A stretch of DNA of 64,000 nt from Phenylobacterium sp. SCN 70-31. Its GTDB lineage: Bacteria > Pseudomonadota > Alphaproteobacteria > Caulobacterales > Caulobacteraceae. Made by a program: the position numbers and the translations under genes. Numbering within the stretch: position 1 is the first letter of the stretch; each line of letters opens with the position of its first letter. Of the stretch, positions 41,331-64,000 are shown piece by piece. The notes beneath the pieces were generated by a model. It made no database searches. It was not told where the DNA came from and was given only the letters and a program-made list of their open reading frames with translations. The DNA lies in assembly GCF_001724605.1 (NCBI RefSeq), contig NZ_MEEX01000014.1, forward strand, positions 34,241 to 98,240, written 5' to 3'.

Positions 41331-41528
41331 ATGAAGCGCATTCTCTTCCTTTGCGTCACCAACTGCGTCGCTTACCACACCAAGATGGCGCACCAGCACG
41401 GCGCCACCCGGGAAGAGGTCGCCGAGACGGCCGCGCTGGCCATCTACATGGGCGGCGGCCCGGCGGCGGTGTACGGGGCCGACGCGCTGCGCGCTTATGA
41501 CCAATTCAGCGCCATCGGCGGTGGCTAG
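41331..41528 (+). pseudogene. Truncated carboxymuconolactone decarboxylase/AhpD-like domain with an LMW-phosphatase-like N-terminus
   Basis: MKRILFLCV (ArsC/LMWP-like start) joined to TNCVAYHTKMAHQHGATREEVAETAALAIYMGGGPAAVYGADALRAYDQF (CMD C-terminal half). Confidence 0.6.
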
Positions 41529-41554
41529 ATGCGCCCGTGTGCGCGGCACGGCCA

Positions 41555-45393: not shown

Positions 45394-45452
45394 GGCCTCA
45401 AAAGAAACGCGAGCGACTTCCAACTGTCGCAATATTCTTATATCGTGGAAAT

Positions 45453-45806
45453 ATGGAAACGAAACCTGCCGTCGCAATCCTCGCCGCCCTCGCGCACGAG
45501 GGCCGCTTGGCCACCTTCCGCCTGCTGGTGCAAGCCGGATCGCAAGGTTTGGCCGCCGGCGAAGTCGCGAGGCGGCTCGACGTGCTGCCGAACACACTTT
45601 CCGCCAGCCTCAGCGTGCTGAGCCACGCGGGCCTGATCACTTCGCGCCGGGAGGGCCGCTCGGTGATCTACTCCGCCAACTATGACGCCATGCGCGAGCT
45701 GCTCGCCTTCCTGATGGAGGACTGCTGCGCAGGCACCCCCGAAATCTGCGCGCCGCTTGCCGCCCTCGCCAGCCAGGGCTGCAAGGCCGAAGCCCTGCGC
45801 GCTTGA
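45453..45806 (+). CDS. arsR: ArsR-family regulator
   Basis: [65 protein letters not shown]; vicinal CC in MEDCCAG. Confidence 0.94.
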
Positions 45807-45815
45807 GGAACCGCC

Positions 45816-46334
45816 ATGACCGACAAGATCTACAACGTCCTCTTCCTCTGCACCGGCAACTCGGCGCGCTCGGTGATTGCCGAGGCGCTGATGAACCGAG
45901 AGGGCCGCGGCCGCTTCAAGGCCTTCTCGGCCGGATCGATGCCGACCGGGCGCGTCAATCCTCATACGCGACCGATCGTCGAGAGCCTGGGTTTCGACTT
46001 CGGCGATTTCCGCTCGAAATCCTGGGAGGAGTTTGCCCAACCCGGCGCGCCTGTGCTCGATTTCATCTTCACCGTCTGTGACAACGCCGCCGGCGAGGTC
46101 TGCCCGGTCTGGCCGGGCCAGCCGATGACCGCCCACTGGGGCGTGCCGGACCCGGCGGCGGTCGAGGGTTCCGAGGCCGAGATCGGCGCGGCCTTTTCCG
46201 AGACCGCTCGGCTGCTGGGCAATCGGATCCGCCTGTTCCTGAACCTTCCGCTCGACAAGCTCGACCGGATGTCCCTGCAAGCTAGGCTTCGCCAGATCGG
46301 CGAAGCCGCCCATGAGACGAATCCCGCCCAATGA
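45816..46334 (+). CDS. arsC: Arsenate reductase, low-molecular-weight phosphatase family
   Basis: YNVLFLCTGNSARSVIAEALMNREGRGRFKAFSAGSMPTGRVNP. Confidence 0.94.
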   Translation: MTDKIYNVLFLCTGNSARSVIAEALMNREGRGRFKAFSAGSMPTGRVNPHTRPIVESLGFDFGDFRSKSWEEFAQPGAPVLDFIFTVCDNAAGEVCPVWPGQPMTAHWGVPDPAAVEGSEAEIGAAFSETARLLGNRIRLFLNLPLDKLDRMSLQARLRQIGEAAHETNPAQ

Positions 46335-47443
46335 CCATCGCAACGCCGGCCGTCGCCGAGGCCCCCAAGCCCATGTCCCGCTTCGAGCGCTTCCTCACCG
46401 TTTGGGTGGCGTTGTGCATTGTGGCCGGGGTCGGCCTCGGTCACCTCTTCCCAACCGCTTTCCAGTCGATCGGCTCGGCCGAGGTCGCCAAGGTCAACCT
46501 GCCGGTAGCGGTGCTGATCTGGCTGATGATCATCCCGATGCTGATGAAGGTCGACTTCGGCGCCATGCGCCAGGTCGGCCGGCACTGGCGGGGTATCGGG
46601 GTGACCCTGTTCGTCAACTGGGCGGTAAAGCCGTTCTCAATGGCGGCCCTGGGCGCCTTCTTCATCGGATACCTATTCCGGCCCTACCTGCCGGCCGGAG
46701 AGATCAACAGCTACATCGCCGGCCTGATCCTACTGGCGGCGGCGCCCTGCACCGCCATGGTGTTCGTCTGGAGCAATCTGACGCGCGGCGAGCCCAATTT
46801 CACGCTCAGCCAAGTGGCCGTGAACGACGCGATCATGATCGTGGCCTTTGCGCCCATCGTCGGCCTGCTGCTCGGCCTCTCGGCGATAACGGTGCCGTGG
46901 GAGACCCTGCTGATCTCGGTGGGCCTCTACATCATCGTGCCCGTCGTGATCGCCCAACTGCTGCGCACGGCGCTCATGCGGCGTGGCGGCGAGGCGCACC
47001 TCCTGCAAGTCCTGGGCAAGATCGGTCCGGTCTCGCTGACGGCACTACTTGCCACCCTGGTGCTGCTGTTCGGTTTCCAGGGCGAGCAGATCATTTCGCA
47101 GCCGGCGATCATCGCGATGCTCGCCGTGCCGATCCTCATCCAGGTCTACTTCAACTCGGCCCTGGCCTATTTCCTGAACCGGTTCACCGGCGAGGCGCAC
47201 TGCGTGGCCGGCCCTTCGGCTCTGATCGGCGCCAGCAACTTCTTCGAGCTCGCCGTCGCCGCCGCCATCAGCCTGTTCGGCTTTACCTCCGGCGCGGCGC
47301 TCGCCACCGTGGTCGGCGTGCTGATCGAGGTGCCGGTGATGCTCACTGTCGTCGCCATCGTGAACCGGTCGAAGGGCTGGTACGAGCGCGGCGGCGCAGT
47401 TCAACGGGTGGCGGCGCAAAGCGCCCCGCCGATCATACGGTGA
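46331..47443 (+). CDS. ACR3-family arsenite efflux transporter
   Basis: MSRFERFLTVWVALCIVAGVGLGHLFP; LPVAVLIWLMIIPMLMKVDF; AAAPCTAMVFVWSNLTRGEPNFTLSQVAVND. Confidence 0.95.
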   Translation: MTIATPAVAEAPKPMSRFERFLTVWVALCIVAGVGLGHLFPTAFQSIGSAEVAKVNLPVAVLIWLMIIPMLMKVDFGAMRQVGRHWRGIGVTLFVNWAVKPFSMAALGAFFIGYLFRPYLPAGEINSYIAGLILLAAAPCTAMVFVWSNLTRGEPNFTLSQVAVNDAIMIVAFAPIVGLLLGLSAITVPWETLLISVGLYIIVPVVIAQLLRTALMRRGGEAHLLQVLGKIGPVSLTALLATLVLLFGFQGEQIISQPAIIAMLAVPILIQVYFNSALAYFLNRFTGEAHCVAGPSALIGASNFFELAVAAAISLFGFTSGAALATVVGVLIEVPVMLTVVAIVNRSKGWYERGGAVQRVAAQSAPPIIR

Positions 47444-47448
47444 CAGCC

Positions 47449-47862
47449 ATGTCCGATTTCCCGATCACCATCTTCCACAATCCGGCTTGCGGCACCTCCC
47501 GCAACACGGTGGCCATGGTCCGGGCCGCCGGCTACGAGCCGGAAGTCGTCGAGTACCTGCAGGCCGGTTGGACGAAGCCCCAGCTTAAGGACCTGCTCGC
47601 CGCCATGGGCGCAGGTCCGCGCGACATCCTGCGGGAGAAGGGTACGCCCGCGGCCGAACTCGGACTCCTGGCCCCCGGCATGTCGGATGAGGCGATCCTG
47701 GATGCCATGGTCGAGCACCCCATCCTCGTGAACCGGCCGATCGTCGTCACGCCCAAGGGCGTGAAGCTTAGCCGCCCGTCGGAAGTGGTGCTCGACCTGC
47801 TGGAGCGGAAGCCTGAGAGCTTCATCAAAGAAGACGGCGAGGTCGTGCGACTGCGCGCATGA
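47449..47862 (+). CDS. arsC: Arsenate reductase, glutaredoxin-dependent ArsC type
   Basis: ITIFHNPACGTSRNTVAMVRAAGYEPEVVEYL; ILVNRPIVVTPKGVKLSRPSE. Confidence 0.95.
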   Translation: MSDFPITIFHNPACGTSRNTVAMVRAAGYEPEVVEYLQAGWTKPQLKDLLAAMGAGPRDILREKGTPAAELGLLAPGMSDEAILDAMVEHPILVNRPIVVTPKGVKLSRPSEVVLDLLERKPESFIKEDGEVVRLRA

Positions 47863-48455
47863 CGCGCTTCGCCTCGACCGCAATGGCGTCGGCCGCTTGG
47901 GGCGTGGCGGGTGTCGCGGCGGCGCTGCTCCTGGTTCAGCTTCTCGCGCCCTTGGGGGCGACGGGGTCGTTACTGGCGTTGTCGGCGGCGGCCGGTTACG
48001 CAAGCCTGACGGAGTTCGGCGCGCGGCGGGGGCGGGATCCGGCGCTCGGCTCGCTGGCCGAGGCCGCAGCGGCCGGTCTGGTCCAGTTTCTGGGTGTCTG
48101 GACGCTTATAGCGCTTACCGGGCCCTGGGCGGCCCAGGCCGATGAGTTCCTCACGACCACGCGCTTTCGATTCTACGCCGCCGTGGCGCTGGGCGGCGCC
48201 TTCACCGTTTCGCTGCTGCTGCGGCTGGTCGCGCAGCGGCGCCCGGATCTTCCGGGACGACTTCTCGTCCAGGGCATGACCTTCTGGGTGAGCCCGTTCT
48301 TTGGCTTCTTCAGCCCGGTGGTGTTCGCGGCCATGTCGGTCTCTGGCTTCGGCGGAGCGCCGACTGGTTTGGCCGGGCTTGGTGTCGCGGCGGGTATGGT
48401 CGCGACGCATCTCGCCGGCCGCTTCCTGGCCGATTGGTTCACCGAAGCCCGCTGA
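47859..48455 (+). CDS. Uncharacterised membrane protein in the ars operon
   Basis: 198 aa with several hydrophobic segments; ATG overlaps the arsC stop (ATGA). Confidence 0.7.
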   Translation: MTRFASTAMASAAWGVAGVAAALLLVQLLAPLGATGSLLALSAAAGYASLTEFGARRGRDPALGSLAEAAAAGLVQFLGVWTLIALTGPWAAQADEFLTTTRFRFYAAVALGGAFTVSLLLRLVAQRRPDLPGRLLVQGMTFWVSPFFGFFSPVVFAAMSVSGFGGAPTGLAGLGVAAGMVATHLAGRFLADWFTEAR

Positions 48456-48467
48456 CCTTGAGGTGCC

Positions 48468-49538
48468 CTAAGCCGGCGCAAGCGCCTCGGCGATCTGGCG
48501 CGCGGTGTCACGTGCGGATCGCATGACGCCCGTCAAGGTCGCGGACGCAAAGCCCGTCCACTCGCCATAGCCGACTAGCCACAGGCGCGGCTCCTTGACT
48601 GAGCGCGTGCCCTCGACCGCCACACGTCCGGACGGTTCAACTACGTTCAGGTCGGCCAGATGCTGCAGGGCCGGTCGGAAGCCGGTGCACCAGATCACTG
48701 CATCCACCTCGGTTTCCCGCCCGTCGGGCCACACGACACCGCGAGGGGTGAAGCGCCCGAAAGGACGGACCGCCTTCAGCACGCCGCGGTCGCGGGCCGC
48801 CCTCACGGGCGGCACCATGACGACATCGCCGAGCCCGCCCGGAGGCGGCGCGTCGGCGCCGATCCCTTGCTTTGCCTGCCAGCGAGCGGTGGCCCGCTCG
48901 AACAGCACGCGGCCGTCCACGTCATCCGGGAGGAAGGTCGGCGGTTCCGGTGTCACCCAGGTTGCGTCGGCGACCTGCGACACCTCGGCGAAAATCTGCG
49001 CCCCGCTGTTGCCGCCGCCGACCACCAGTACCCGTTGGCCCTTGAAGACCTCGGGGTTTCGATATTGCGCCGAGTGGATCTGCACGCCTTCGAAGCGCGG
49101 CTGGTCGGGATAAGGCGGCCAGTAGGGCGCGCGCCAAGTGCCGGTTGCGCTAACCACGGCTCGAGTTCGCCATGTGGCGGGGCAGGTCTCGACCACGAGC
49201 GCACCCGCCTCCGCGTGGACGAGGTCAACCTCGGCAGGCCGGATGACCGGCAGTTCGTAGCGCGCCTCATACGCGGTGAGATATGCGATCACCTCATCGC
49301 GGGTCGGATAGGCTTCGCCGCTTGACGGCATGGGCCAACCGGGAAGCGAGCTCCACTCAGCGGGCGAGAACAGCCGAAGCGAGTCCCAGCCGTGGCGCCA
49401 AGCCCCGCCGGGGTCGGGCTCGCCATCGACGATCGCAAAGCGCAGGCCAGTCCGGCGCAGGAAATATCCTATGGCGAGCCCAGCCTGGCCGCCGCCGATG
49501 ACGATGACGTCGAAGCTCGTTGGAGAGGACTTCGTCAT
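48468..49538 (-). CDS. ArsO-like flavin-containing monooxygenase
   Basis: [61 protein letters not shown]; second GxGxx[19 protein letters not shown]. Confidence 0.85.
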
Positions 49539-49709
49539 GCGTATTTGCCTCCTGTAGTCGGCAATACCTCAAGATGGAGCCTGGGGCGCTGCTCAGCATC
49601 CCCCGCCGGTCTCTCGATTTTCTGAGACTGGAAGTTGATAGTTGACCCCGAGCGCCGGCGGTAGCGGCCGGCTGGCCGAAGCCGGCGCGATGCTTCGCGA
49701 CCCAAATAC

Positions 49710-49913
49710 CTAGCCGACGAGCTCTGCCAGCGGCGCGGCCAGAGCCCCGGCGATCTTCTCCAGCACAGTGATCGTCGGATTGCGAACGCCCCGCTCGACG
49801 CCAGAGACGTAGGTGCGATGCACGCCTGCGCGGTCGGCGAGGTCCTCCTGCGAGATGCCCTGAGCCTCCCGCAGCCGCTTCACGTTGAGCCCCACTCGCC
49901 GACGCACGTCCAT
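49710..49913 (-). CDS. XRE-family HTH regulator, R-M controller-like
   Basis: MDVRRRVGLNVKRLREAQGISQEDLADRAGVHRTYVSGVERGVRNPTITVLEKIAGAL. Confidence 0.9.
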   Translation of the reverse strand: MDVRRRVGLNVKRLREAQGISQEDLADRAGVHRTYVSGVERGVRNPTITVLEKIAGALAAPLAELVG

Positions 49914-49951
49914 GGCCCGAAGGGGCCGGGACGCAGCCTTTTGATCTACAG

Positions 49952-50022
49952 CCTATGAGTCTCAATTGAGTTGACTGCTCGCCACTGCGTATGGCTGCTC
50001 AACCTCCAGTGAGACTCATAGG
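49952..50022. promoter_or_regulatory. Inverted-repeat pair between divergent XRE and membrane-protein genes
   Basis: CCTATGAGTCTCA (49952-49964) and TGAGACTCATAGG (50010-50022) are perfect 13-bp inverted arms. Each contains its own 9-bp palindrome TGAGWCTCA. Confidence 0.7.
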
Positions 50023-50036
50023 ATACGGAGAAAGCA

Positions 50037-50672
50037 ATGGGTGCGGGCGGCCAGAGCCAAGACGAACAGGCGAAGGGGATACTGGCGCCGGCCAGCCAGA
50101 AGGTGTGGGTGATCACCATCGGGGTCGCCTGCCTGATCGCGGGCGTCATTATCACCAACACGCGGAATGGCGGAGACGAGCATAAGAGCGTCGTCGGGAG
50201 CGCAGACACCTCGGCGGCCTCCGCCACCCTGACAGAGGAAGCGACCGCCATCTGGACGCAGTTCGAGACTTCGGCTCAGGCTTGCGATCAGGCGAGCGAC
50301 CGGGTGAAGGCCGAACTGCAATCGCCGGACGGGACGCCCTATTCGACCTATCCCCTGGCGAAGGACGCCGTCTATGCCTGCGACGCCGCCACGAGCGCCA
50401 TCTTCGCGCTTGAGCCGCCGAAGGGCGCGCCGGACGCCCTGAAGGCGGAGTTTCAGACTGCGCTCAGCGCCTGCTACCGGGCCTACCGGGGCAAGCAAAA
50501 CGTCTTCCAGCGCCTCACCAAAGTCTTGGACGGCGACGCGCGGCCATCGACCATGCAGGCGGTTCAGAACGAGATGCAGACGGCCGAGGGCCACATGGTA
50601 ACCTGCGTGCCCGGCCTGATGGCCGCCGTCGAACAGGCGACCGGCAAGTTCCCCGAACCCGCACAGCGGTGA
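50037..50672 (+). CDS. Hypothetical membrane-anchored protein
   Basis: Single N-terminal TM (VWVITIGVACLIAGVIITNT) followed by a soluble helical region. Confidence 0.65.
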   Translation: MGAGGQSQDEQAKGILAPASQKVWVITIGVACLIAGVIITNTRNGGDEHKSVVGSADTSAASATLTEEATAIWTQFETSAQACDQASDRVKAELQSPDGTPYSTYPLAKDAVYACDAATSAIFALEPPKGAPDALKAEFQTALSACYRAYRGKQNVFQRLTKVLDGDARPSTMQAVQNEMQTAEGHMVTCVPGLMAAVEQATGKFPEPAQR

Positions 50673-52121
50673 TCACCGCCGCACCACCTCTCGGCGCTCG
50701 ACCACCTGTCTTCGCTCAGGCGTTCGGCGCACCAGCGGCCCGCTACGGGCGTTGCGGCCGGTAAGATAGTCGAGCGCCTGGCTGGTCGCATCGACCTGGT
50801 CGTCGTGCTTGCCAGCAGGGAAGGCGAGCAGCTCCCTCACATACTCCCCCAGCCAGGGCGCTTCCTGGGGCAGGTGTACCTGTCCCGCTTCGAAGCGCGC
50901 GGACTGCGCCTCCAGTCGCACGCGCTTCTCATGATAGGGCCGGATCAGGATCGGGCGCAGAAGGCCGGCCCGCCGCAAGTCCTGCCCCAGCGCCCGCCCA
51001 AGCTCGGTGTCTTCGATGATGGTCGTGTCGGCCTCCCAGCGCATGGCGACATCAACGATGGTGCGACGCAGATCCGGCGCCTCCAGCCGGTCGCGCACGA
51101 CATCGAGCAGATAGTAGTCGAGCCCCTTGGCGCCCCACACCTGACCGACCGACCAGTCCGAGGTCTCGTTCAAGGTCGAGGCCGTATCCCAGGAGACGAT
51201 GACCCGGTCGAAGGTCTCGGGCAGGGCGTCGCAGTACCTCAGCCACTCGCGCCGAATGACGTTGCCGCCAGCCGGCGCCGGCTGCTGCTGGTACTGGGCC
51301 TGGAAGAGCAGACTGCCCTGGGCGCGGCGAAGCTCGTTCAGCACCTCGATCGGTTCGCGCTCGGGCATGAGGAGATCGCCAGCGCGCCGACAATGCATGT
51401 CGCCGCGACGACCACTTAACGGGTGGACCGTGTCCTCGGTGGCGATGGCGGGGAAGGAGACCACCTCCCAGTCACCGCGCTCCAGCACGTGGCCGACGAG
51501 ATCGTCTTCGTGCAGCCTCTGCATGATGATCACTACCGCCCCGCGGGTCTTGTCATTGAGACGGGTGATCAGGGTGTTGTCGAAGAAGTCATTGACCCGC
51601 CGGCGCGACGCCTCCGAGAGGGCGTCCAAGCCCTTCAGAGGGTCATCGACAATGATGACGTCCGCTCCGCGGCCGAGGATTGCGCCGCCCACGCCCGAGG
51701 CGAAGCAGGAGCCGAAGCGCGAGGTTCGAAGCTCCAGATCCCGGAGCCGGGCCATCTGGGTGTCGGGGAACAGCGACTGATACCAGTCGCTCTCGGCGAT
51801 TGCCCGACGCTTGATGCTGAAATCCCGCGCCAGGTCCTCGGTGTGCGAGACGCAGATCATCTTCAGGGTCGGATCATGCCCCCAGAGGAACATCGGCCAG
51901 GCGATGGTCGCCAGGACCGATTTTCCCGACCTAGGCGGGACATTAATGATCAGCCGGCGGCATTCGCCGCGCATGACGCGGGCGAGCTGCCAGGCGATCG
52001 CCTCGTAATGCCAGCCCATGACGAACTGGGTTCCGGGATCGATGTCCCGGAACACGCGCTGTACGAAGGCCAGCAGATCCTGACGTAGAACGGCTTCGAG
52101 AAGCCTTGTCCGATCAGACAC
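50673..52121 (-). CDS. Phage terminase large subunit
   Basis: RLIINVPPRSGKSVLATIAWPMFLWGHDPTLKMICVSHTEDLARDFSIKRRAI; GGAILGRGADVIIVDDPLKG; VIVSWDTASTLNETSDWSVGQVWG. Confidence 0.93.
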   Translation of the reverse strand: MSDRTRLLEAVLRQDLLAFVQRVFRDIDPGTQFVMGWHYEAIAWQLARVMRGECRRLIINVPPRSGKSVLATIAWPMFLWGHDPTLKMICVSHTEDLARDFSIKRRAIAESDWYQSLFPDTQMARLRDLELRTSRFGSCFASGVGGAILGRGADVIIVDDPLKGLDALSEASRRRVNDFFDNTLITRLNDKTRGAVVIIMQRLHEDDLVGHVLERGDWEVVSFPAIATEDTVHPLSGRRGDMHCRRAGDLLMPEREPIEVLNELRRAQGSLLFQAQYQQQPAPAGGNVIRREWLRYCDALPETFDRVIVSWDTASTLNETSDWSVGQVWGAKGLDYYLLDVVRDRLEAPDLRRTIVDVAMRWEADTTIIEDTELGRALGQDLRRAGLLRPILIRPYHEKRVRLEAQSARFEAGQVHLPQEAPWLGEYVRELLAFPAGKHDDQVDATSQALDYLTGRNARSGPLVRRTPERRQVVERREVVRR

Positions 52122-52536
52122 AGGCGCCTCCGCGGCCGAGCCGTCGCAGCGCTTCGGCGAGGAGTGCGGCGTCCTCGTCGGTCATGCCCTCGCCGTCGGC
52201 GTCGGTCTTCGGCTCCAGGGCCGAGAGCATGTCGACGATCATCGGAAAGGTCCTGATCGCGATCTTTGGATCGTTGACGGCGGCCCCCATCATGCGGCGA
52301 AGGACCGCTTCCATGACCGTGAGTTCCCGGTCGCCCGCTGAGATTGAGCTTTTCAGGACCTCGACGAGGATCTGGTGGAGCTCGTCCTTTAGCGACGGCG
52401 GCTTCTTCGCCCGCCGTCCCGCGGGGTTAGGGGATGGGCCGCCCTTCTTCCACTGGTGCTCCTTGCCGATGTTCTTGTAGCCGGGCTTGCCGTCACCGGG
52501 CTGACGGCCGGCAGGCTGATTGCGGTGCTTTCCCAT
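52114..52536 (-). CDS. DUF5681-like protein, terminase-associated
   Basis: GYKNIGKEHQWKKGGPSPNPAGRRAKKPPSLKDEL; stop overlaps the terL start. Confidence 0.75.
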   Translation of the reverse strand: MGKHRNQPAGRQPGDGKPGYKNIGKEHQWKKGGPSPNPAGRRAKKPPSLKDELHQILVEVLKSSISAGDRELTVMEAVLRRMMGAAVNDPKIAIRTFPMIVDMLSALEPKTDADGEGMTDEDAALLAEALRRLGRGGACV

Positions 52537-52546
52537 GACGGCGACC

Positions 52547-53974
52547 TCACGCGGCGGCCGCGGACGAGGCCGCGCGCTGGTCGAGGAGGGCCTCCAGGGT
52601 GAGGCCGGTCTCCTCATGGATCATGGGGCGATCCACGACCGCCTGCAGCCGGCGAACCGCCACCTCGAAGTAGATCGGGTCGATCTCGACGCCGACGCCC
52701 ACCCGGTTCACCCGGTTGGCGGCGACGACCGTGGAGCCGGTGCCCATGCAGGGATCGAGGATCACGTCGCCAACGTTCGTCACGTCCAGGATCGCCTCGG
52801 AGAGGAGCTGGACCGGCTTGACGGTGGGGTGGGCATCCAGCGCGGCCTTTCGGTCGACGCCGAACTGAGCCATGCCACTGCTGGACCACAGGGTCGTCCG
52901 ATTGCGGCCGTGCTTGCCGAGCTGGACGTTGTTGACGGCGATGCGCTCGCCCTTGGCCAGCACCAATACGAACTCCACCTGGTGGCGATAAAGGCCGCCC
53001 ATGCCGCCGGCGGTCTTATCCCACGCCACCGTGCAGATGTGGCTCAAGCCCAGCGATCGCGTGGCCTGGGTAAGGCCGTACATTCCGCGGTGGTCGATGA
53101 AGAGGAAGACCGCCCCGTTCCGGACGACATGCGGCGCCGACGCTCCCAGCAACTCGGTGAAAAAGCCGATCGCCTCCGGCTCGCTCATGGAGGCGCCTTC
53201 GACGAAGTCCTTATGCTTGGCGCTGACGACGCCCTCGATCGGCACCAGGCCGTAGGGCACGTCGGAAAACAGCATCTGCACCGCCTTGCCGCCCACGGCC
53301 TGGGCGATGACGGTCGGGTCCTTCGCGTCGCCGCAGACCAGCCGGTGCATCGGTGCGCCATCGGCGGGCCCGAAGATGAAGGCGTCGCCGTGTTGTAGGA
53401 GGGAGGTCTTCTCCGCCGTGGGGATGTCTGCGTCGGCCGGCTGGTCGAAGCCGGAGAGAAGCAGGCCGTCGATCTTGCCCATGGGAAGCAGGGTGTGGGC
53501 GACCAGATCTGGGTCGATCTGGATCAGTCCTTCGACGCTGAGCTTGAGCTGCTCGACGTCCCATTGCCCCATCTCGAGGAGGGCGTGATGGGCGATGCGG
53601 AACGTCTCGACCTCAGCCTCGCTCAGGTGGTCGGCGCGCTGGACGTAGACGGTGGTGTGGCCGAGCGTCTTCAGCGCCTCCCAGAGGAGGTGGCCGTCGA
53701 TGATGCGATTGTCCTTATCGACCAATATCGGGGCGACTACGCTGAATCGGCGGATGGTCGAGACGAGTTTGTCGAGCTTGCCGCGCGGATGCTTCCGCAC
53801 CCGGCGCTCGGCGGGTTTCAGCTGATCGATGGGGATCTGTGTGAAGGTGGAAGGACGCTCAGTTTGCAGAGCTGTCGAGGTCTGGGGGCGCTGACGAACG
53901 CGCACGGCGTTCGAGTTTGGCTGGGGCATTTGGGCCTCCGAGAAGACGTGAACCCGGCCATCGACGTCGTTCAC
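52547..53974 (-). CDS. ParB-like nuclease domain / DNA methyltransferase fusion
   Basis: N-terminal PIDQLKPAERRVRKHPRGKLDKLVSTIRRFSVVAPILVDKDNRIIDGH (ParB-like). C-terminal HPTVKPVQLLSEAILDVTNVGDVILDPCMGTGSTVVAANRVNRVGVGVEIDP (N6/N4 MTase motif I). Confidence 0.92.
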   Translation of the reverse strand: MNDVDGRVHVFSEAQMPQPNSNAVRVRQRPQTSTALQTERPSTFTQIPIDQLKPAERRVRKHPRGKLDKLVSTIRRFSVVAPILVDKDNRIIDGHLLWEALKTLGHTTVYVQRADHLSEAEVETFRIAHHALLEMGQWDVEQLKLSVEGLIQIDPDLVAHTLLPMGKIDGLLLSGFDQPADADIPTAEKTSLLQHGDAFIFGPADGAPMHRLVCGDAKDPTVIAQAVGGKAVQMLFSDVPYGLVPIEGVVSAKHKDFVEGASMSEPEAIGFFTELLGASAPHVVRNGAVFLFIDHRGMYGLTQATRSLGLSHICTVAWDKTAGGMGGLYRHQVEFVLVLAKGERIAVNNVQLGKHGRNRTTLWSSSGMAQFGVDRKAALDAHPTVKPVQLLSEAILDVTNVGDVILDPCMGTGSTVVAANRVNRVGVGVEIDPIYFEVAVRRLQAVVDRPMIHEETGLTLEALLDQRAASSAAAA

Positions 53975-54514
53975 CTCCTTTCAGAGGCGCCTGTTCGTCG
54001 ATTGGCCAGCTTCGCCGCTGCTCGGAACCATTCGGTCCCAAAATGCCGCTCGCTGTCCGTTGGGTGTTCAGACCCACGCATACTGGCGACGATTCGGCGA
54101 ATTGAGAAGATAGGGGCAGTTCATGCGTCAACTCGGCCCCTGCGCCACCCGAGGTGCCGTCGATGTGGGCGCAGTGGGCTCATCGATGAACTCGGCAACG
54201 TCCGCTGTGGGGGAAGGGGCTATCCACGCGACGTCAGCTTCACGGTCTCAGCACCTTGAACTATGAGCGGGTTCCTACTGGACGGACTTCCGAACCTCAT
54301 AACCGACCCGGCCAGCCGCGAAGCCCCGCCGGCGATCATGATCGGCCTGTTCGGAGAAGTTCCCTGCGAGTAAGGACCGGTGGCACAGTGACCCGGGGCG
54401 TAATTGTTAGAACTTGCGAACACCACGTCGGGATGCAGCTTTGACGCTCCGAACACCGGCTTGTCTTTCGTTCGCGTCCGCGATCTCTTTTCGCGCTGAT
54501 CGGACGGGCGGGGC

Positions 54515-55294
54515 ATGGTGCAGTTCAACGATTGGTGTGTCTCGGTCGACCAGCCGGTCGGAAACCATTTCCGCCGAGTGATGACCGGCCAGGCCGCAAG
54601 GCTGCCGACCGGCATTCAGGCGACGGCGGCGATCGTCCGCGGCCACTATGCCTCGGAGGAGCAAGTCGCTCGTGCGCTGGCCCGTCTTGGCAAGCCTGCG
54701 GCTGCCGCGCTGATCGAAGGCAAGCTCCCGACGACCAAGGCCATACGATCCGGTGACCTTGGCGAGATCTACGCCACGGAATGGATCGACGCCCACAGTG
54801 GCGGCTATTGCGCACCGATCAAGCGGCTGCGCTGGAAGGACCACCGCAACATGGCGATGCGCGGTGACGACGTGATCGGCATTCTGCAGGATCCGCAGAG
54901 CCAGCGTCTCAGTTTCCTGAAGACCGAAGCGAAGAGCCGGGCCGCGCTTACGACGCAGGTGCTCACCGACGCCCGCGTCGGCCTCGACAAGGATGGCGGC
55001 CTGCCATCCGCCCACGCGCTATCCTTCATCTCGGCGCGACTGCTCGAGCTGGGCAATCTGCCCCTGGCCGATGCGATCGACGATGCGCTGCTGAAGCATG
55101 GCATCCCGACTCAGAGTGTCCGGCACCTGTTGTTCACCTTCTCGGGCAACGCCCCGGAAGCTCTGCTGACCGCCTCGCTCCAAGCCTATCCTGGCCCCTT
55201 CAACCAATGGGGCATCGGCCTGCACGTGGAGGGACACGCCGCCTTCATCGGCGCCGTATATGACCGAGTGATCGCCGATGCCAACAACGCCTGA
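54515..55294 (+). CDS. HamA-like (DUF1837-type) putative nuclease of a Hachiman-like defence system
   Basis: GDLGEIYATEWIDAHSGGYCAPIKRLRWKDHRNMAMRGDDVIGI...FLKTEAKSRAAL; PD-(D/E)xK-like, immediately upstream of and overlapping a large SF2 helicase. Confidence 0.72.
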   Translation: MVQFNDWCVSVDQPVGNHFRRVMTGQAARLPTGIQATAAIVRGHYASEEQVARALARLGKPAAAALIEGKLPTTKAIRSGDLGEIYATEWIDAHSGGYCAPIKRLRWKDHRNMAMRGDDVIGILQDPQSQRLSFLKTEAKSRAALTTQVLTDARVGLDKDGGLPSAHALSFISARLLELGNLPLADAIDDALLKHGIPTQSVRHLLFTFSGNAPEALLTASLQAYPGPFNQWGIGLHVEGHAAFIGAVYDRVIADANNA

Positions 55295-58200
55295 GGCAAT
55301 CGCCGCCGAGATAGCCGAAGCCGCGACCGCCGGTTTCCGCGGCCGCCTGATCGCCCGTGGCCAGGCGCGCGCCATGATCTGGCGCGACGGTGCTCTGCCG
55401 GCGGATGCGCCAGCCTTCGCGCCGCAGCTCAGCTACGATCTGCATTCCTATGGCTATGCGCTTCTCGGGCTCGGTCTGCGGCTTCGAGAATTAGGTGGCG
55501 ATCCGGCGCGCGCCCGCACCGCCTTCGAGCAGGCGGCCACCGCGCTCGAGGCCGTTATGGCCAAGGGTGATCGCCTGGAGGTGGACCGCGACTTCCACTT
55601 CGTCATGGCGGCGGCCAGCTATCATCTCGCGCATCTGTCCGCTCGCGCCTACTCGCTGCTTGCGATCGTCCAGGCGGACGAGAACTTCGCGCCGGCGGAA
55701 CGGATGCTCGCCCTCCTGATGCGGAGAGACTTCCGCGCCCTCCAGGCCAGCGTGCTGGATTATCGCGCTACAGGCCGCGGCAGTGATCAGCGGATCTCGG
55801 CTGACCTCCAGGCGCAGCTCGATCAGGCGGCGGACGCGGCCGATGGCGGCAATGATTTTCTCTTCGAAGGTCTCGACACCGCGCTGACCGACGGCTTCAT
55901 GGCCGCGATGTCTCTGTTCCTCCTCGCGCTCGAACGTGGAGAACGGCCATTGGTCGATCTGGCGCTGGAGCGTCTGCGGACAGGGCTCGCGGTTTGCAGC
56001 GAATTGAACATGCTGCCGCAATGGTGGAGCCACCGCGTCGCGATCCACCTGCTGTCGGATCTCTGGTCCAGCACGTTCCATGAGAAGGTCCCGCTCCAGC
56101 CCGCCGGCGGCGGCGCGGCTGATTGGCCCAAGCTGCGCGAGTTGTTCATCGCGCTGCTGCAACGGCGATCGAAGGCCGAGGTCGACCTGTGGCCATCGCA
56201 GATCGAAGCCGCGATCCGCGCCGTCGATCAATCCGACGACCTCGTGGTTTCGCTCCCGACCAGCGCCGGCAAGACGCGCATCGCCGAACTGTGCATTCTG
56301 CGCTGTCTCGCGTGCGGTAGGCGGGTCGTCTTCGTCACTCCGCTTCGCGCGCTCTCGGCTCAAACCGAGACGACCTTGCAGCGGACCTTCGGTCCCCTCG
56401 GAAAGACGATCTCGGCGCTCTACGGCAGCATCGGGGCCAGCGGCTTCGACGAGGATGCGCTCCGCGAGCGCGATATCGTCGTCGCCACGCCGGAGAAGCT
56501 CGACTTCGCGCTGCGCAACGATCCCTCCCTCCTCGACGATGTCGGCCTGCTCGTGTTCGACGAAGGCCACATGATTGGCGTCAACGAACGCGAAGTTCGA
56601 TACGAAGTGCAGATTCAACGGCTGCTTCGCCGTGCGGACGCGCAGCAGCGGCGGATCGTATGCCTATCCGCGATCCTGCCTGACGGCGACCAGCTCGAAG
56701 ACTTCGCCGGTTGGCTGCGGCGCGATCATCCCGGCGGACTTATCAAGCTCGACTGGCGCCCAACCCGATTGCGCTTTGGCGAGGTCGTCTGGTCATCCTC
56801 CAGCGCCCGTCTCAACTTGCGCGTCGGAGAAGAGCGCCCTTGGGTCCAGCGTTTCCTGACAGGCGCCGCGCCTCCACATTGGATCCCGCCCAAGCGTCGC
56901 CGCACCCGCCTGTTTCCCGACGACCAGCGTGAGCTGTGCCTTGCGACCGCCTGGCGCCTGGTCGACGACGGCCAGACGGTTCTGATCTTTTGCCCGGAAC
57001 GACGAAGCGTCGAACCGTTCGCGGACGTGATCGTCGACCTTCACGAACGTGGCGCGCTGCGCTCGCTGCTCGAGGCCGACCCCGTTGTCCTCGACACCGC
57101 GATCGCGCTCGGTACGGAATGGCTTGGTGCCGATAACGCGATCCTCAAATGCCTGCGTCTTGGCGTCGCCCTGCATCACGGCGCGCTTCCGACCGCGTAT
57201 CGCAAGGAGGTCGAGCGCCTGCTGCGCGACAATGTGCTGAAGGTGACGATCTCCTCGCCGACGCTCGCCCAGGGCCTCAACCTGTCGGCTACGGCCGTCA
57301 TCATGCACTCGCTTCACCGCTTCGGGGAGCGGATCGACGTCTCCGAATTCAAGAACGTTATCGGCCGCGCCGGGCGGGCCTATGTCGATGTGGAGGGCTT
57401 GGTGCTTTTCCCCATGTTCGACGACATCGCCAAGAAGCGCCGCAATTGGGAAGCGCTCATCGACGATCTCGGCGCGCGCAACATGGAAAGCGGGCTCGTG
57501 CAACTCGTCGGCGCGCTCCTGTCGCGCATGTACGCTCGGATCGGCGGCGACGTGGCCCAGCTCGTCGAATATGTAGTCAACAACGCCGCTGCGTGGACCT
57601 TCCCCGAAGTCGCCTACGAGAGGCCTGAGGACCGCGAGCGCGCGCTCGCGGATTGGCAGCGGCATGTCGCCACGCTCGACACGGCAATCCTCAGCCTCAT
57701 TGGCGAGAGTGACATACCGGACGAGGGAATCGAGGCAGCGCTCGATGACATCCTTCAATCCTCGCTCTGGCACCGACGGTTGCTTCGCCAGAATGAGCCG
57801 GTCCAGCAGGCTCTCAAGGCCGGTCTCTTGTCGCGCAGCCGGCTCATCTGGAACCAGTCGACCGCGGCTCGCCGCCGCGGCTATTTCCTTGCCGGCGTTG
57901 GACTGACCACCGGCCAGGCGCTCGACGCGATCGCGGCGGAAACCAACCTCCTGCTCATCCAGGCCAACGGCGGCATCCTCGCAAATGATGCCGAGGCCGC
58001 GATCACCGCGATCACCGGCATCGCCGAACGCGTGTTCGCCTTCTACCCTTTCACGCCCGACCCCATGCCTGCCAACTGGCGCGACATCCTCCGCGCCTGG
58101 TTGCTCGGCCAGCCGCTTTCCGAGATGGCCGTCGGCCAGGAGTCTGAAACCCTGCAATTCGTCGAGGGCGGTCTCGTCTATCGTTTGCCGTGGGCCATGG

Positions 58201-58787
58201 AAGCGATCCGCGTCAGGGCCGCCGCCAACGGCGACACGGTCGGCATGTTCGACCTGCCGCTTGAAGATCATGAACTTGGCGTTGCTGTGCCGGCAGTCGA
58301 AACCGGCACGCTGAACCGCTCCGCCGCGATCCTCATCCAGGCAGGTTTCAATTCAAGGCTCGCCGCCATCAAGGTCGTCACCGACACCGGCGCGACGTTC
58401 GCGACGGGACAGGAACTTCGGCAGTGGCTCGGCTCGGACGCCGTCGCGGCCTGGAGTGCGCTGCCCGATTGGCCGACGGCCGAAACGCGGGCGATGTGGA
58501 CCGAGTTCGCGCAGAGCTTCACCCCGCGTGCCAGTCGGACCTGGGCCGACCGCCGCTATTGGGCGAATGTCACCTGGCTCGGTGCTCCTCCGCCCCCTGG
58601 CACGCCGGTCAACGTGCATGATTGGGATGGCCAGCCGCGTGTCCTCGCCGCCGACGGAGGGCCGCTCGGCACAGTCCAGGCCGCGCTGAACCCCAACCGC
58701 GCCGGCCAGCTTCGCGCGCAAGTCGCCGCGGACGTCGCCCGAATCGACATCACTTACCTCGGACCGGATGATCTCACTGGCGCCTAA
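55278..58787 (+). CDS. HamB-like superfamily 2 helicase
   Basis: Motif I LPTSAGKTRIAELC; motif II VFDEGHMIG; SSPTLAQGLNLSATAVIMHS and NVIGRAGRAYVDVEGLVLFP; 1169 aa; start overlaps the HamA-like stop. Confidence 0.8.
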   Translation: MPTTPEAIAAEIAEAATAGFRGRLIARGQARAMIWRDGALPADAPAFAPQLSYDLHSYGYALLGLGLRLRELGGDPARARTAFEQAATALEAVMAKGDRLEVDRDFHFVMAAASYHLAHLSARAYSLLAIVQADENFAPAERMLALLMRRDFRALQASVLDYRATGRGSDQRISADLQAQLDQAADAADGGNDFLFEGLDTALTDGFMAAMSLFLLALERGERPLVDLALERLRTGLAVCSELNMLPQWWSHRVAIHLLSDLWSSTFHEKVPLQPAGGGAADWPKLRELFIALLQRRSKAEVDLWPSQIEAAIRAVDQSDDLVVSLPTSAGKTRIAELCILRCLACGRRVVFVTPLRALSAQTETTLQRTFGPLGKTISALYGSIGASGFDEDALRERDIVVATPEKLDFALRNDPSLLDDVGLLVFDEGHMIGVNEREVRYEVQIQRLLRRADAQQRRIVCLSAILPDGDQLEDFAGWLRRDHPGGLIKLDWRPTRLRFGEVVWSSSSARLNLRVGEERPWVQRFLTGAAPPHWIPPKRRRTRLFPDDQRELCLATAWRLVDDGQTVLIFCPERRSVEPFADVIVDLHERGALRSLLEADPVVLDTAIALGTEWLGADNAILKCLRLGVALHHGALPTAYRKEVERLLRDNVLKVTISSPTLAQGLNLSATAVIMHSLHRFGERIDVSEFKNVIGRAGRAYVDVEGLVLFPMFDDIAKKRRNWEALIDDLGARNMESGLVQLVGALLSRMYARIGGDVAQLVEYVVNNAAAWTFPEVAYERPEDRERALADWQRHVATLDTAILSLIGESDIPDEGIEAALDDILQSSLWHRRLLRQNEPVQQALKAGLLSRSRLIWNQSTAARRRGYFLAGVGLTTGQALDAIAAETNLLLIQANGGILANDAEAAITAITGIAERVFAFYPFTPDPMPANWRDILRAWLLGQPLSEMAVGQESETLQFVEGGLVYRLPWAMEAIRVRAAANGDTVGMFDLPLEDHELGVAVPAVETGTLNRSAAILIQAGFNSRLAAIKVVTDTGATFATGQELRQWLGSDAVAAWSALPDWPTAETRAMWTEFAQSFTPRASRTWADRRYWANVTWLGAPPPPGTPVNVHDWDGQPRVLAADGGPLGTVQAALNPNRAGQLRAQVAADVARIDITYLGPDDLTGA

Positions 58788-58830
58788 GCCCGTTGACGCC
58801 CTTCCTGATCTGCGGAAGTGAAAGGCGACC

Positions 58831-59739
58831 ATGACCGACCACTACGCGCAGCTCGATCTCGAAGGTTCGCGGGTCGGAACCTGGGAGTTCACCGACACCG
58901 AGTGTTATCGACTCGACAGCGAGCCGCGGCGCGGCGGCCTCCATCACTACACCGCCGCCGACCAGGACGCCCTGTGGACGCTGCTAGGCGAGAAGAACGG
59001 CTGGTACAAGGAGGGGCCGACCGCCACGTTCCACCGCCTGGACCTTTTCGCCGGCAAATTTCACCGGCGCATGGCCCGTCCCGAACAGCCTGGCCGCGGC
59101 CGAGACAACATTTGGTATCCCGGTGAGGCGGAGGAACGCACAACCATCGCCAAGGCGCGCGGTCAGTTGGCTGTGCTGACGCGGAAGCTTGAGGAGCTCT
59201 GCCAGACCGTCCATCCAGAGGGCACCAACCTCGACGTCTACGGCCACGACATCCGCAACCTGTTGATCCTGGCCAGCACCGAGGTGGAGGCGCATTGGCG
59301 CGGGGTGCTGACCGCCAATGGCCAGGTGCTGGAGCGTCCGAACACGGCGGACTACGTGAAGCTCGCCGCCCCCATGCGCCTCCGCGAGTATTCGATTTCG
59401 ATCGGCGCCTTTCCTTGGCTCGGGCCCATCGCCCCGTTCGGGAACTGGGGCACGACGGGTAAGCCGACTCAGGAGTTGGCTTGGTATGCGGCCTACAATG
59501 AGACCAAACACGACCGTGACGGTCAGTTTCCGCGCGCGACGTTGCGACATGCCATGGAGGCCGTCTGCGCCAGCGTGGTCATGACCGTGGCGCAGTACGG
59601 CCTCGAGCGCGCCCTAGGCGATGGGTCGCTGCTGATTGCGAATTACGCGCTCGTGGACACGCCCGATTGGAAACCGGCCGATCTCTATACGCCACCCTAC
59701 GATGCTGCGGGGTGGACGGGCGTGCCGTTCGCCTTCTGA
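58831..59739 (+). CDS. Uncharacterised protein in the defence-like locus
   Basis: 302 aa ORF; YGHDIRNLLILASTEVEAHWRGVL and LAWYAAYNETKHDRDGQFPRATLRHAMEAV; no family confidently recognised. Confidence 0.65.
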   Translation: MTDHYAQLDLEGSRVGTWEFTDTECYRLDSEPRRGGLHHYTAADQDALWTLLGEKNGWYKEGPTATFHRLDLFAGKFHRRMARPEQPGRGRDNIWYPGEAEERTTIAKARGQLAVLTRKLEELCQTVHPEGTNLDVYGHDIRNLLILASTEVEAHWRGVLTANGQVLERPNTADYVKLAAPMRLREYSISIGAFPWLGPIAPFGNWGTTGKPTQELAWYAAYNETKHDRDGQFPRATLRHAMEAVCASVVMTVAQYGLERALGDGSLLIANYALVDTPDWKPADLYTPPYDAAGWTGVPFAF

Positions 59740-59749
59740 CCGCCGGTCG

Positions 59750-62374
59750 TTACGCGGCCTTCTCCTGCCGGCTCCGGATGTCTGCGATCCACTTTTCCAG
59801 CGCTCCGATTTCGGCTGTGATCACCGATGGCGCGGGCAGCCGCGGATTGATTTCGCCGGGCTGACTGTGAAGGAGCGCCGAGCACCGCCCGAACGCGTCG
59901 CGCATGGCGGTACAATCGGTATCGGTGAGAACGGTGAGCTTGATGAGTCCCGTCGTATCCACCTTTCGGGACAGGCGGCGGATCACCGGCATGATCACTT
60001 CCTCGACGGCGCGTTCCCAGGTCGTGCGGAGCTGGTCCTGGAAGGATGTCACCTCGCGCAGCCATTTGGCCTGATCGCCGCGTTCGTGATGGATTTTCAC
60101 GTTGGCGAGGTGGGCCTTCATTCCGTCGATCACCTTGTCGAGCGGCATGACATTTGCGGGCGGATCCTGATGGCAGTAGCCGGCGTTCTCGGCGCCCCGG
60201 CTGATCAGGCGGTACGCCACCGGTGTCGCGTCCCGGTCCTTGGTCGCCCGACACGCCTCATCAAGGAGAAGCAGGAACGCCATGTCGTGGGTGAACACGA
60301 TCACCTGGCGGGTCTGGCCGGCCTCGGCCAATCGAGCGGCGACCTTATCGCGATGCAGATGGTCCAGCGACGAGACGGGGTCGTCGAACACGATCGCCGA
60401 CTGCGCATCGATCGTCGACAGCTCCGCGAGAAAGGCCGCCAGCGCGACGCAGCGATGTTCTCCCTCGCTCAGGACTTTGCCGACCGGCTCGGTCGGCTTG
60501 TTGATCAGCTGGACCTGGAAAAACGGGACGCCGGCGGAGGTCTTGGCCTGCTGCAGTTCGATGGCGAGACCGGCGACTCCGAGCTTGTCCACCTCGATCG
60601 CGAACCTTCCCCGCAGGCGATTGGTGACGAGGGCCTGCGCGATGCGGGCGCTTTGGGTCGTGATCTTGTTGGTGGCGGTGTCCTTGCTGGCTTTCTCCGT
60701 CGTCTCGATGGTCCTGAGGCGATCGATCTGGGCGAGCACGTCGGCCTTCACCACGCCGAGCCATTTGCGGTCAGTAAGGCCGTCACGCTCGGCGATGAGC
60801 GCCGCGCGCTGAGGGGAGTTGGCCTCTGCCTGCAGGCCATCGATACGCGTGGCGATCCCGCGGAGGGCCGTGCGTAGGGGATCGAGGGAGACGGTGACTG
60901 AAGCCGGAAGAGCTGGCTGGGCCGCGAGGCAGTGGGTTCGCAGGATGGCGCGCAGTCGCCAAGCCAGCTGCAGGGTGTCGCGGCGAAGGGTCCTAGCGGC
61001 TTCCTCCTGACCGACATCATCGCGCATCGTCGCGACGATCGCGATAAGCGCCTTCATCGAGACGGCCTTTGACGAGACCTCCTCCAGCTTGTGGTCATAC
61101 GCGTTCGCGGCTTCCTGCTCGCGCCGCTTGCTTTGGTCCTGCACGAACGCTTCGAAGCTGCTCAGCCTCTTTGCGGTCTCCTCACTGAGCGGCTGCTGAC
61201 ACAGAACGCAATGATCTCCTGTCGTGGCCGCGGGGAATGGCCGGTCAGGATAGGCGGACGCGCGAGAATAATCGCGGGCCGCTTCCCACAGAGCCTTCCA
61301 GACGTCGGAGCCGACGTCGGGGAGCGGCTCGTCGGCGAACAGGTTGGCGGAGGCGGCCGCGGCGGCGGAACGCGCGGTCGCGAGGTGCGTATGGGCCTCG
61401 CGCAGCGCTGCCTGATTTTCGTCCGTGGCGGCGGCCATGAGCTGGTCGAGCTTTTCGATCGCCGACCTGATACGGGCTTCCTGGCTCTGGAGCTGGCGAA
61501 CCGTGCGCGCAGGGTCGCTGGCCAGGTCGGTGTTGAGCGTTTGCAGCCGAGCTTCTTCGTCGGCCGTCAGGCCCGCGAGCTTTTCGACGGCGTCCTGTTT
61601 CGTCTTTCCGGACAGGCCGGCGACCAGCTTGCCGACGGGCGTGTCTGGCTTGCATTCGGGCTTCGACAGGACCGCGGGGGTCTGCTCCTGCAGCGCCTTG
61701 ATCTCGGCAGCCAGTTTAGCCCTCACATCCTGGCATGTCTGCGCGAGGCCTGCGAGGATCCGGAGCGGCAGTGGCGTGTAGGCGAGATCGTTAGTGTTCT
61801 CGACGTGGACATTGGCGGTGCGGGAATCGAAGACGCTGACAGCCGAGAGCATTGGGTCGGGCGCTTCCCCCTGCGTCCAGGATGCGCTTCGCTTCTGTCC
61901 GCCGATGAAGAAGTCGATGCTGGCGCTGGGGGTGCCGGAGCTAGCCGCGTAGATGTTCGGGAGGATCGCGTCGCCCTTCGGCGAGCGAGCCCGACAGAGT
62001 TGCTTCAGAACACGAGCATAGCCGGATTTGCCGGCGCCGTTGTCGCCGTAAATGACGGTCAGGCCCGCTTTGCCGAATGAGAGGCGCTCGCCCGGCGCCA
62101 GCGCGTTGACATGGGACAGGCCGTGAAGGGCACCGAGGCTGACGACAGCGTGGCTGGCTGAAGGGTCCCTGATGTGACTCGCGTCGAGCGGGACGGCGGC
62201 CGCATCGCCCTTGCAGATCGCGACGAGGGCCGTGATGTCGGCTGTCTCCAGCTTGGGCTGGCTGCATAGCCGCCGCAGCGCATCGCGTTGCCATGCCGGC
62301 AGGTCCGTCGACCATTTAAGGACGTCGGCGAGCGCCGCTGCCTCATTCGAGAGATCGTTCTCCTGCGCATCCAT
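59750..62374 (-). CDS. Rad50/RloC-like AAA (AAA_13-type) ATPase
   Basis: Walker A IYGDNGAGKSGYARVLKQLCRAR; CVLCQQPLS CxxC between coiled-coil-like regions; signature LSEGEHRCVALAAFLAEL; Walker B AIVFDDPVSSLDHLHRD. Confidence 0.82.
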   Translation of the reverse strand: MDAQENDLSNEAAALADVLKWSTDLPAWQRDALRRLCSQPKLETADITALVAICKGDAAAVPLDASHIRDPSASHAVVSLGALHGLSHVNALAPGERLSFGKAGLTVIYGDNGAGKSGYARVLKQLCRARSPKGDAILPNIYAASSGTPSASIDFFIGGQKRSASWTQGEAPDPMLSAVSVFDSRTANVHVENTNDLAYTPLPLRILAGLAQTCQDVRAKLAAEIKALQEQTPAVLSKPECKPDTPVGKLVAGLSGKTKQDAVEKLAGLTADEEARLQTLNTDLASDPARTVRQLQSQEARIRSAIEKLDQLMAAATDENQAALREAHTHLATARSAAAAASANLFADEPLPDVGSDVWKALWEAARDYSRASAYPDRPFPAATTGDHCVLCQQPLSEETAKRLSSFEAFVQDQSKRREQEAANAYDHKLEEVSSKAVSMKALIAIVATMRDDVGQEEAARTLRRDTLQLAWRLRAILRTHCLAAQPALPASVTVSLDPLRTALRGIATRIDGLQAEANSPQRAALIAERDGLTDRKWLGVVKADVLAQIDRLRTIETTEKASKDTATNKITTQSARIAQALVTNRLRGRFAIEVDKLGVAGLAIELQQAKTSAGVPFFQVQLINKPTEPVGKVLSEGEHRCVALAAFLAELSTIDAQSAIVFDDPVSSLDHLHRDKVAARLAEAGQTRQVIVFTHDMAFLLLLDEACRATKDRDATPVAYRLISRGAENAGYCHQDPPANVMPLDKVIDGMKAHLANVKIHHERGDQAKWLREVTSFQDQLRTTWERAVEEVIMPVIRRLSRKVDTTGLIKLTVLTDTDCTAMRDAFGRCSALLHSQPGEINPRLPAPSVITAEIGALEKWIADIRSRQEKAA

Positions 62375-62860
62375 CGCTCTGCCCCCTTTGCGCCGCGTCT
62401 GGTGAGGCCGGCCGCTTCCCCGTATTGCTCAAAGCTCGATGGCTGGCGTCGCTCCGGACCGAGTGGGACAATCCAGCCGCCGGCGGTCAGTGCCAGCAAA
62501 TTCATCCGAGCGCGCAGTCTGGGTCAGACGAGTTCGCACGGGCTGAGGCTCAGGAACATTGGATCACTATAACAAGCGTGCGACCGCGAACTACCCATGG
62601 CGATCTTCGCCAGGTCCGCTCCGAGAACCCCGCAGCTGAGCCGTGCGAACGTCCCGAAATTGGAGCAGTCTCAACGTCTGTAGATGGTGCGCGCCGACCA
62701 TTGGGCGGCAAGAAAATCCAGCTCGACGTTCCAGGCAGCGTGGTCCTGAACACCGCTGGACTTCGGCCCGGAAGGGAGCGGTAGTGCACACACGCCCGGG
62801 GAGCCGGGCTCGTCTCAGTACGGGGACCGCGATGGGCGGCCTCGATGAACGGAGGCGAGT

Positions 62861-63136
62861 ATGACCAAGCCAAAGACCAAGACCCAGTCCGCCGAGACCG
62901 CGCGCGCAGCCGGTGACGTCGCAGGCCCGAAGGGCAAGCTCGGCGCCCTGGTGGCGCTGCTGCTGCGCCCAGAGGGCGCGACGCTCGAAGCCATGCAGGC
63001 GGCGACCGGCTGGCAGGCGCATTCTGTGCGTGGCGCCATCGCGGGCTCGATCAAGAAAAAGCTCGGCTTCGACGTCACGTCGGAGAAGGCCGACGGCGGT
63101 CGAGTCTACCGTATCGCGAAGGGAGCCGGCGCGTGA
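62861..63136 (+). CDS. DUF3489-family protein
   Basis: GKLGALVALLLRPEGATLEAMQAATGWQAHSVRGAIAGSIKKKLGFDVTSEKADGGRVYRI. Confidence 0.88.
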   Translation: MTKPKTKTQSAETARAAGDVAGPKGKLGALVALLLRPEGATLEAMQAATGWQAHSVRGAIAGSIKKKLGFDVTSEKADGGRVYRIAKGAGA

Positions 63137-63564
63137 GCGCCGGCGACCACCTGGCCGGGCTGGATGCTATGTCGCTTGCCGACTTGCGTGCCGCCTGGAC
63201 CGAACGACTCGGCGGCGAACTGCCGAAGCTGCGCACACGGGAGCTGATGGCGCTGGCTCTGGCGCATCGACTGCAGATCCGGGCCGACGGCGATTTGTCC
63301 GGATCGTCAAAGCGCCGAATGGCCGAGCTGGCGCGAAGGTTCCGCGAAGACCGTGGCTACATGCCCACGCCCGGCCCGAACCTGAGACCTGGCACGACCC
63401 TGATCAAGGAATGGCGCGGCGTGCGTCATGAGGTCTGGGTTCTGGAGGAGGGTTTCAGCTACCTGGGACAGCGGTTCGGCTCTTTGAGCGAGGTCGCCCA
63501 GCACATCACAGGCACAAAGTGGAACGGCAGGGTGTTCTTCGGCCTGAAGGAGCGGCGCCGATGA
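63133..63564 (+). CDS. DUF2924-family protein
   Basis: DLRAAWTERLGGELPKLRTRELMALALAHRLQ...PGTTLIKEWRGVRHEVWVLEEGFSYLGQRFGSLSEVAQHITGTKWNGRVFFGL. Confidence 0.9.
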   Translation: MSAGDHLAGLDAMSLADLRAAWTERLGGELPKLRTRELMALALAHRLQIRADGDLSGSSKRRMAELARRFREDRGYMPTPGPNLRPGTTLIKEWRGVRHEVWVLEEGFSYLGQRFGSLSEVAQHITGTKWNGRVFFGLKERRR

Positions 63565-64000
63565 GCGTCGTGCGCCTGCGCTGCGCCATCTACACCCGCA
63601 AGTCCTCGGAGGAGGGGCTGGAGCAGAACTTCAACAGCCTGCATGCCCAGCGGGAGGCCTGCGAAGCCTATGTGCTATCCCAGGCCGGTGAGGGCTGGAA
63701 CGCCGTCAAAACGGCTTACGACGACGGTGGCTACTCGGGTGGCTCTATGGATCGGCCTGGGCTGCAGCAGCTCATGGCCGACATCCAGCGCGGCCTGGTC
63801 GACGTCGTGGTGGTCTATAAGGTCGACCGTCTGACCCGCTCGCTGGCCGACTTCGCCAAGATCGTCGAGCTGTTCGACACCAAGGGTGTCTCCTTCGTTT
63901 CGGTCACCCAGGCCTTCAACACGACCTCCAGCATGGGGCGCCTCACGCTCAATGTGCTGCTCTCCTTCGCCCAGTTCGAGCGGGAGGTGACCGGCGAGCG
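63561..64000 (+). CDS. Serine recombinase (resolvase/invertase family), truncated by window end
   Basis: CAIYTRKSSEEGLEQNFNSLHAQREACEAYV...YDDGGYSGGSMDRPGLQQLM...VVYKVDRLTRSLADF; ATGA overlap with the DUF2924 gene; open at 64000. Confidence 0.93.
   Translation, partial: MSVVRLRCAIYTRKSSEEGLEQNFNSLHAQREACEAYVLSQAGEGWNAVKTAYDDGGYSGGSMDRPGLQQLMADIQRGLVDVVVVYKVDRLTRSLADFAKIVELFDTKGVSFVSVTQAFNTTSSMGRLTLNVLLSFAQFEREVTGE

Follow-up and report, generated by a model that had tools for sequence, protein, structure and literature searches.

A Hachiman (HamAB) gene pair in the cargo slot of an alphaproteobacterial mobile element

The Hachiman system of Escherichia coli ECOR31 is among the systems closest to the locus described here. 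In it, the mutations HamA E138A/K140A or HamB D431A abolish defence (Tuck et al., 2024; PMC12278908), as does mutating both positions of an interface motif, (R/K)xx(R/K) (PMC12278908). A second helicase-containing system, AbpAB, is reported to respond to phage SSB or to DNA damage as its trigger (PMC10732053). We examined an overlapping gene pair, hamA and hamB, in a 64,000-nucleotide stretch of the Phenylobacterium sp. SCN 70-31 genome (contig NZ_MEEX01000014.1). This whole stretch is called the window, and all coordinates without a locus prefix refer to it. We assign the pair with high confidence to the Hachiman (HamAB) abortive-infection systems, as a canonical two-gene member of the ECOR31 clade lodged in the cargo slot of an alphaproteobacterial mobile element that carries a serine recombinase.

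The first gene, hamA (54515..55294, + strand), starts with ATG and encodes a predicted effector nuclease of 259 amino acids (aa) and of the DUF1837/PD-(D/E)xK type, in which the motifs GDLGEIY, RGDDVIGI and KTEAKSR can be read. The second, hamB (55278..58787, + strand), also starts with ATG and encodes a predicted Ski2-like superfamily 2 (SF2) sensor helicase of 1169 aa, with motif I TSAGKT at residues 328-333 (K332), motif II DEGH at 428-431, SPTLAQG at 660 and GRAGR at 696. With hamA upstream of and adjacent to hamB, the gene order is that of a two-gene Hachiman system, and both open-reading frames (ORFs) and the quoted motifs lie exactly where the original prediction, made from the sequence alone, had placed them. 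A scan of a genome collection covering 84,980 species returned 98 related loci, 80 of which were kept for comparison. The two frames share 17 nt (55278..55294, + strand), and an identical overlap is present in 77 of the 81 relatives with a readable junction, a pattern consistent with translational coupling.

The family assignment is carried by profiles and solved structures that cover both proteins from end to end. The best PADLOC models are HamA (PDLC00159; 383 bits, 1.6e-115, residues 1-258 on model positions 1-257 of 257) and HamB (PDLC00174; 1864.7 bits, residues 1-1167 on positions 1-1160 of 1163). The best PDB matches are the two ECOR31 subunits: 8vx9_A for HamA (296 bits, 1.8e-87, residues 1-258, 54% identity, gapless) and 8vx9_B for HamB (1729 bits, residues 1-1166), the latter followed by Hel308, SLH1 and Brr2 at about 115-125 bits. 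Pfam places DEAD and Helicase_C domains in HamB, both above cut-off, and in RefSeq-type annotation the homologues from E. coli and Aminobacter bear the name 'Hachiman antiphage defense system protein HamA'. The HamA/HamB call of the original prediction, which had rested on motif reading, is thus confirmed, with profile scores that fall inside these families for both proteins. Its remark that the helicase is long holds for SF2 helicases generally, but not within the HamB clade, where 1169 aa is normal. The further suggestion of a divergent subtype found no support: ECOR31 HamB has 1174 aa, the best PADLOC model has 1163 positions, and agreement with ECOR31 HamB in length and sequence from end to end rules out a divergent HamB.

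Some results weigh against this assignment. HamA barely exceeds the cut-off of its own Pfam family (PF08878 HamA; 29.3 bits, cut-off 25), an NCBIfam search of HamA returned no match, and a promoter scan upstream of hamA gave no convincing sigma-70 promoter. Given the PADLOC and PDB matches, the thin Pfam signal and the absent NCBIfam signal for HamA probably reflect the clades behind those models.

The residues on which defence depends in ECOR31 are intact. The predicted catalytic residues of HamA, D119, E138 and K140, occupy the same positions as in ECOR31 and do not vary among the 82 relatives read. Both residues of K103xxR106, which lies inside the 102-117 interface segment, are also invariant in 82 of 82; going by the segment named in PMC12278908, we infer that this is the interface motif meant there. 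In HamB, K332 of motif I is identical in 79 of 79 relatives aligned at that site and D428/E429 of motif II in 78 of 78, with D428 the counterpart of ECOR31 D431 after a 3-residue gap. The pair is under purifying selection: pairwise ratios of nonsynonymous to synonymous substitution (dN/dS) against four relatives (L145, L146, L148 and L151) are 0.06-0.16, although three of the four comparisons are close to saturation at synonymous sites. These data bear on whether the locus could be a decayed, non-functional Hachiman copy. Loss does occur in the clade, as the HamB frame is truncated or interrupted in 6 of the 80 relatives (L003, L008, L050, L062, L067 and L080). At the present locus, however, both frames are intact, every motif is kept and the dN/dS values are low, and we consider decay very improbable. 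The hamB gene of L067 has its distal part shifted by about 3 kb, as if by an insertion.

The 80 related loci are spread over Alpha-, Beta- and Gammaproteobacteria, plus a few metagenome-assembled genomes (MAGs) of Acidobacteriota, and their HamA identities are 60-91%. The hamB sequence adjoins hamA in 79 of them, and the remaining locus stops at a contig edge. Given this adjacency, the end-to-end profile matches, the full-length PDB matches and purifying selection, hamA and hamB are real genes and not chance ORFs. Of 5426 complete E. coli genomes, 64 gave a match in a DNA search, 40 of them covering at least 80% of the query. No relatives of HamA were found in INPHARED phage records. As a separate observation, the IMG/VR contig IMGVR_UViG_3300048839_001776 carries HamAB (L151:5330-9629; 87% and 82% identity), flanked by phage tail-terminator and head genes and running on the opposite strand, and appears to hold a phage-borne Hachiman pair.

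Two genes follow hamB in the cargo slot: one for a 302-aa uncharacterised protein (58831..59739, + strand) and one for an 874-aa AAA ATPase of the candidate defence family PDC-S06 (59750..62374, - strand). In a three- or four-gene Hachiman variant, either or both products would be an added effector or regulator. The 302-aa gene shares the strand of hamB and begins 43 nt past it, and there are Hachiman variants that acquired additional genes (PMC12799240). Against such an arrangement, none of the 80 other loci has either gene next to HamAB, and in 67 of those the sequence reaches at least 3.5 kb downstream. Moreover, the DNA homology of two same-genus HamAB loci spans 54465-58772 and 54474-58767, which is hamA to hamB and scarcely more, and ends no more than about 20 nt from the hamB stop; relatives of the 302-aa gene also occur near AbiEii genes without HamAB. 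There is little chance that the system is larger than two genes, and the comparison of related neighbourhoods rules out a third Hachiman gene. Because the 17-nt overlap is kept, dN/dS is 0.06-0.16 and the downstream neighbours are absent from the other loci, Hachiman here reads as a self-contained two-gene unit. The locus adds one well-placed member to the characterised family, and its relatives show that the ECOR31-like clade moves among classes of Proteobacteria, along with a few MAGs of Acidobacteriota, as nothing more than a cassette of two genes.

The mobile element that surrounds HamAB has a recognisable scaffold. On the left, all on the - strand, are the large terminase subunit (50673..52121; phrog_38, 7.1e-106; Pfam Terminase_6C), a DUF5681 protein that is small-terminase-like by position (52114..52617; PF18932, 36.1 bits, cut-off 27.5) and a ParB-N/N6_N4 DNA methylase fusion (52547..53974; PF01555, 4.4e-21; phrog_498, 2.2e-68). 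On the right, all on the + strand, are DUF3489 (62861..63136; PF11994, 5.3e-25), DUF2924 (63133..63564; PF11149, 2e-40) and the N-terminal part of a large serine recombinase (63561..64000; PF00239 Resolvase, 2e-35), inside which the contig stops at window position 64000. The left end of the element lies at 50656, where two copies at different sites in a same-genus genome, G098, start matching at AACCCGCACAGCGG. The cargo slot (54141..62684) is the interval across which blastn homology to both G098 copies and to a copy in another same-genus genome, G204, stops and then resumes; its edges depend on the copy compared (54025-54171 on the left, 62685-62756 on the right).

What fills the slot differs between genomes. 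The G098 chromosome matches the window from 41363 to 54140 at 98.9%, continues in unrelated DNA and resumes at 62685 (94%). The 8.9 kb found there instead encode a Thoeris system, in which ThsA scores 614 bits and the two ThsB proteins 232 and 221 bits, along with other genes. The slot in G204, which shares the same left flank, holds genes for an SMC-like ATPase, a histidine kinase and a response-regulator protein, with no confident PADLOC assignment. Across the scaffold copies compared (window 50656-64000, L100, L102 and L143), three genomes of one genus display three different cargos at a single chromosomal site. A fourth is found in the second scaffold copy elsewhere in G098, whose slot contains a TetR-type regulator and an ATP-binding cassette (ABC) efflux operon, identities that were read from the sequence. 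A search for an empty site found the left flank in G098 and G204 only, both of them occupied. In sister genomes, this scaffold holds different gene sets at one and the same chromosomal site, and comparison of the copies thereby supports the proposal that HamAB is cargo of a mobile element, as the original prediction had suggested. By position only, the G204 trio (L143:10669-14805) is a candidate uncharacterised defence system.

A mechanism for the Phenylobacterium pair can be carried over from ECOR31 HamAB by homology (Tuck et al., 2024; PMC12278908). HamA and HamB would form a complex in which HamB surveys DNA and holds the HamA nuclease inactive on intact duplex. Phage replication would generate damaged or aberrant DNA, on which HamB would act as an ATP-driven helicase and so activate HamA. 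Active HamA would then degrade all DNA in the cell, phage and host alike, and the cell would die before phage release, ending phage production. Complex formation, the trigger, DNA degradation and phage protection are in this way predicted by analogy, and we see nothing in the sequence that contradicts an ECOR31-type mechanism.

The two downstream neighbours are best treated as genes outside the Hachiman system. The sole family match of the 302-aa protein is phrog_19461, of unknown function. It has no Pfam, NCBIfam or PADLOC family, its PDB sequence matches are not significant, and its single-sequence AlphaFold model is unusable, with a mean predicted local distance difference test (pLDDT) score of 34.7. 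To the eye, its sequence looks possibly HEPN-like. It was matched in 7 of 199 family genomes, the present one included, and no relatives were found in viral contigs. The AbiEii genes mentioned above encode nucleotidyltransferases and lie near relatives of the 302-aa gene on two plasmids. The PDC-S06 ATPase gene, convergent with the 302-aa gene, is a separate cargo gene matched end to end by PADLOC PDLC04891 (632.8 bits). It shares about 80% DNA identity with a gene on Methylocella tundrae plasmids and therefore moves independently of Hachiman. To the left of the element, window positions 41537-48452 contain arsenic-type genes encoding an ArsA-like ATPase, an ArsH-like flavin mononucleotide (FMN) reductase, a low-molecular-weight phosphatase and an Acr3-like SBF family transporter.

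The Hachiman system itself is ordinary; its vehicle holds more interest. Of 384 other alphaproteobacterial genomes sampled, 26 contain relatives of the terminase (38-48% identity, E < 1e-100). The ParB-methylase adjoins the terminase in 14 of 15 loci fetched, and in 10 of the 15, DUF2924 and a serine recombinase lie within about 10 kb. Two distant scaffold relatives from other alphaproteobacterial families adjoin defence genes: in L159, a cyclic oligonucleotide-based antiphage signalling system (CBASS) set of JAB, E1-E2, cyclase and phospholipase effector (L159:3040-7577), and in L152, a PglW gene (1537 bits; L152:2991-7115). Probes from a single phage, which make for a weak test, picked up no capsid, portal or tape-measure genes in the distant terminase loci. 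A literature search on DUF2924 or DUF3489 with a recombinase returned Wolbachia papers only. One could envision, tentatively, that the novelty lies in the vehicle and not in Hachiman: a recurrent alphaproteobacterial element, apparently without capsid genes, whose interior may serve as a swap slot for defence systems. Its scaffold would consist of ParB-methylase, DUF5681 and terminase on one side and DUF3489, DUF2924 and the large serine recombinase on the other, and its cargos would be Hachiman and PDC-S06 here, Thoeris in the sister genome and CBASS or PglW beside the distant relatives. The pattern in the distant loci is a lead only. Should the proposal be correct, copies compared at one insertion site would show directly how Alphaproteobacteria exchange defence systems, and terminase, ParB-methylase, DUF2924 and serine recombinase would form a marker set for finding more defence genes in the slot.

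Set against described systems, the locus resembles HamMAB (PMC12799240) in its helicase family and locus logic. The HamA of that system is protease-fused and has lost its own active site, whereas the 259-aa HamA described here is unfused with its active site intact, which rules out a protease-fusion Hachiman. AbpAB is likewise a two-gene abortive system containing a helicase. A helicase-nuclease system related to Hachiman yet distinct from it, such as an AbpAB-like one, was made conceivable by the earlier remark on helicase length and by a weak match of AbpB (PDB 8ZUE) to HamB, but it is exceedingly unlikely, as AbpB scores 34 bits against 1729 bits for ECOR31 HamB, PADLOC ranks its HamA and HamB models first with end-to-end coverage, and the helicase equals ECOR31 HamB in length. 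Among E. coli systems, the closer homologue is the H15-type HamAB (NZ_CP010178, L147), which has the same 17-nt overlap and 70% (HamA) and 72% (HamB) identity. Unlike the present locus, it is neighboured by metallophosphoesterase, HAD hydrolase and fimbrial genes and by insertion sequence (IS) remnants. ECOR31 HamAB (PDB 8VX9; PMC12278908) comprises two genes in the same order (259 and 1174 aa there, 259 and 1169 aa here), with full-length homology and the same catalytic and interface residues. It differs in that HamA identity is 54% and in that the pair described here resides in a mobile element of an alphaproteobacterium.

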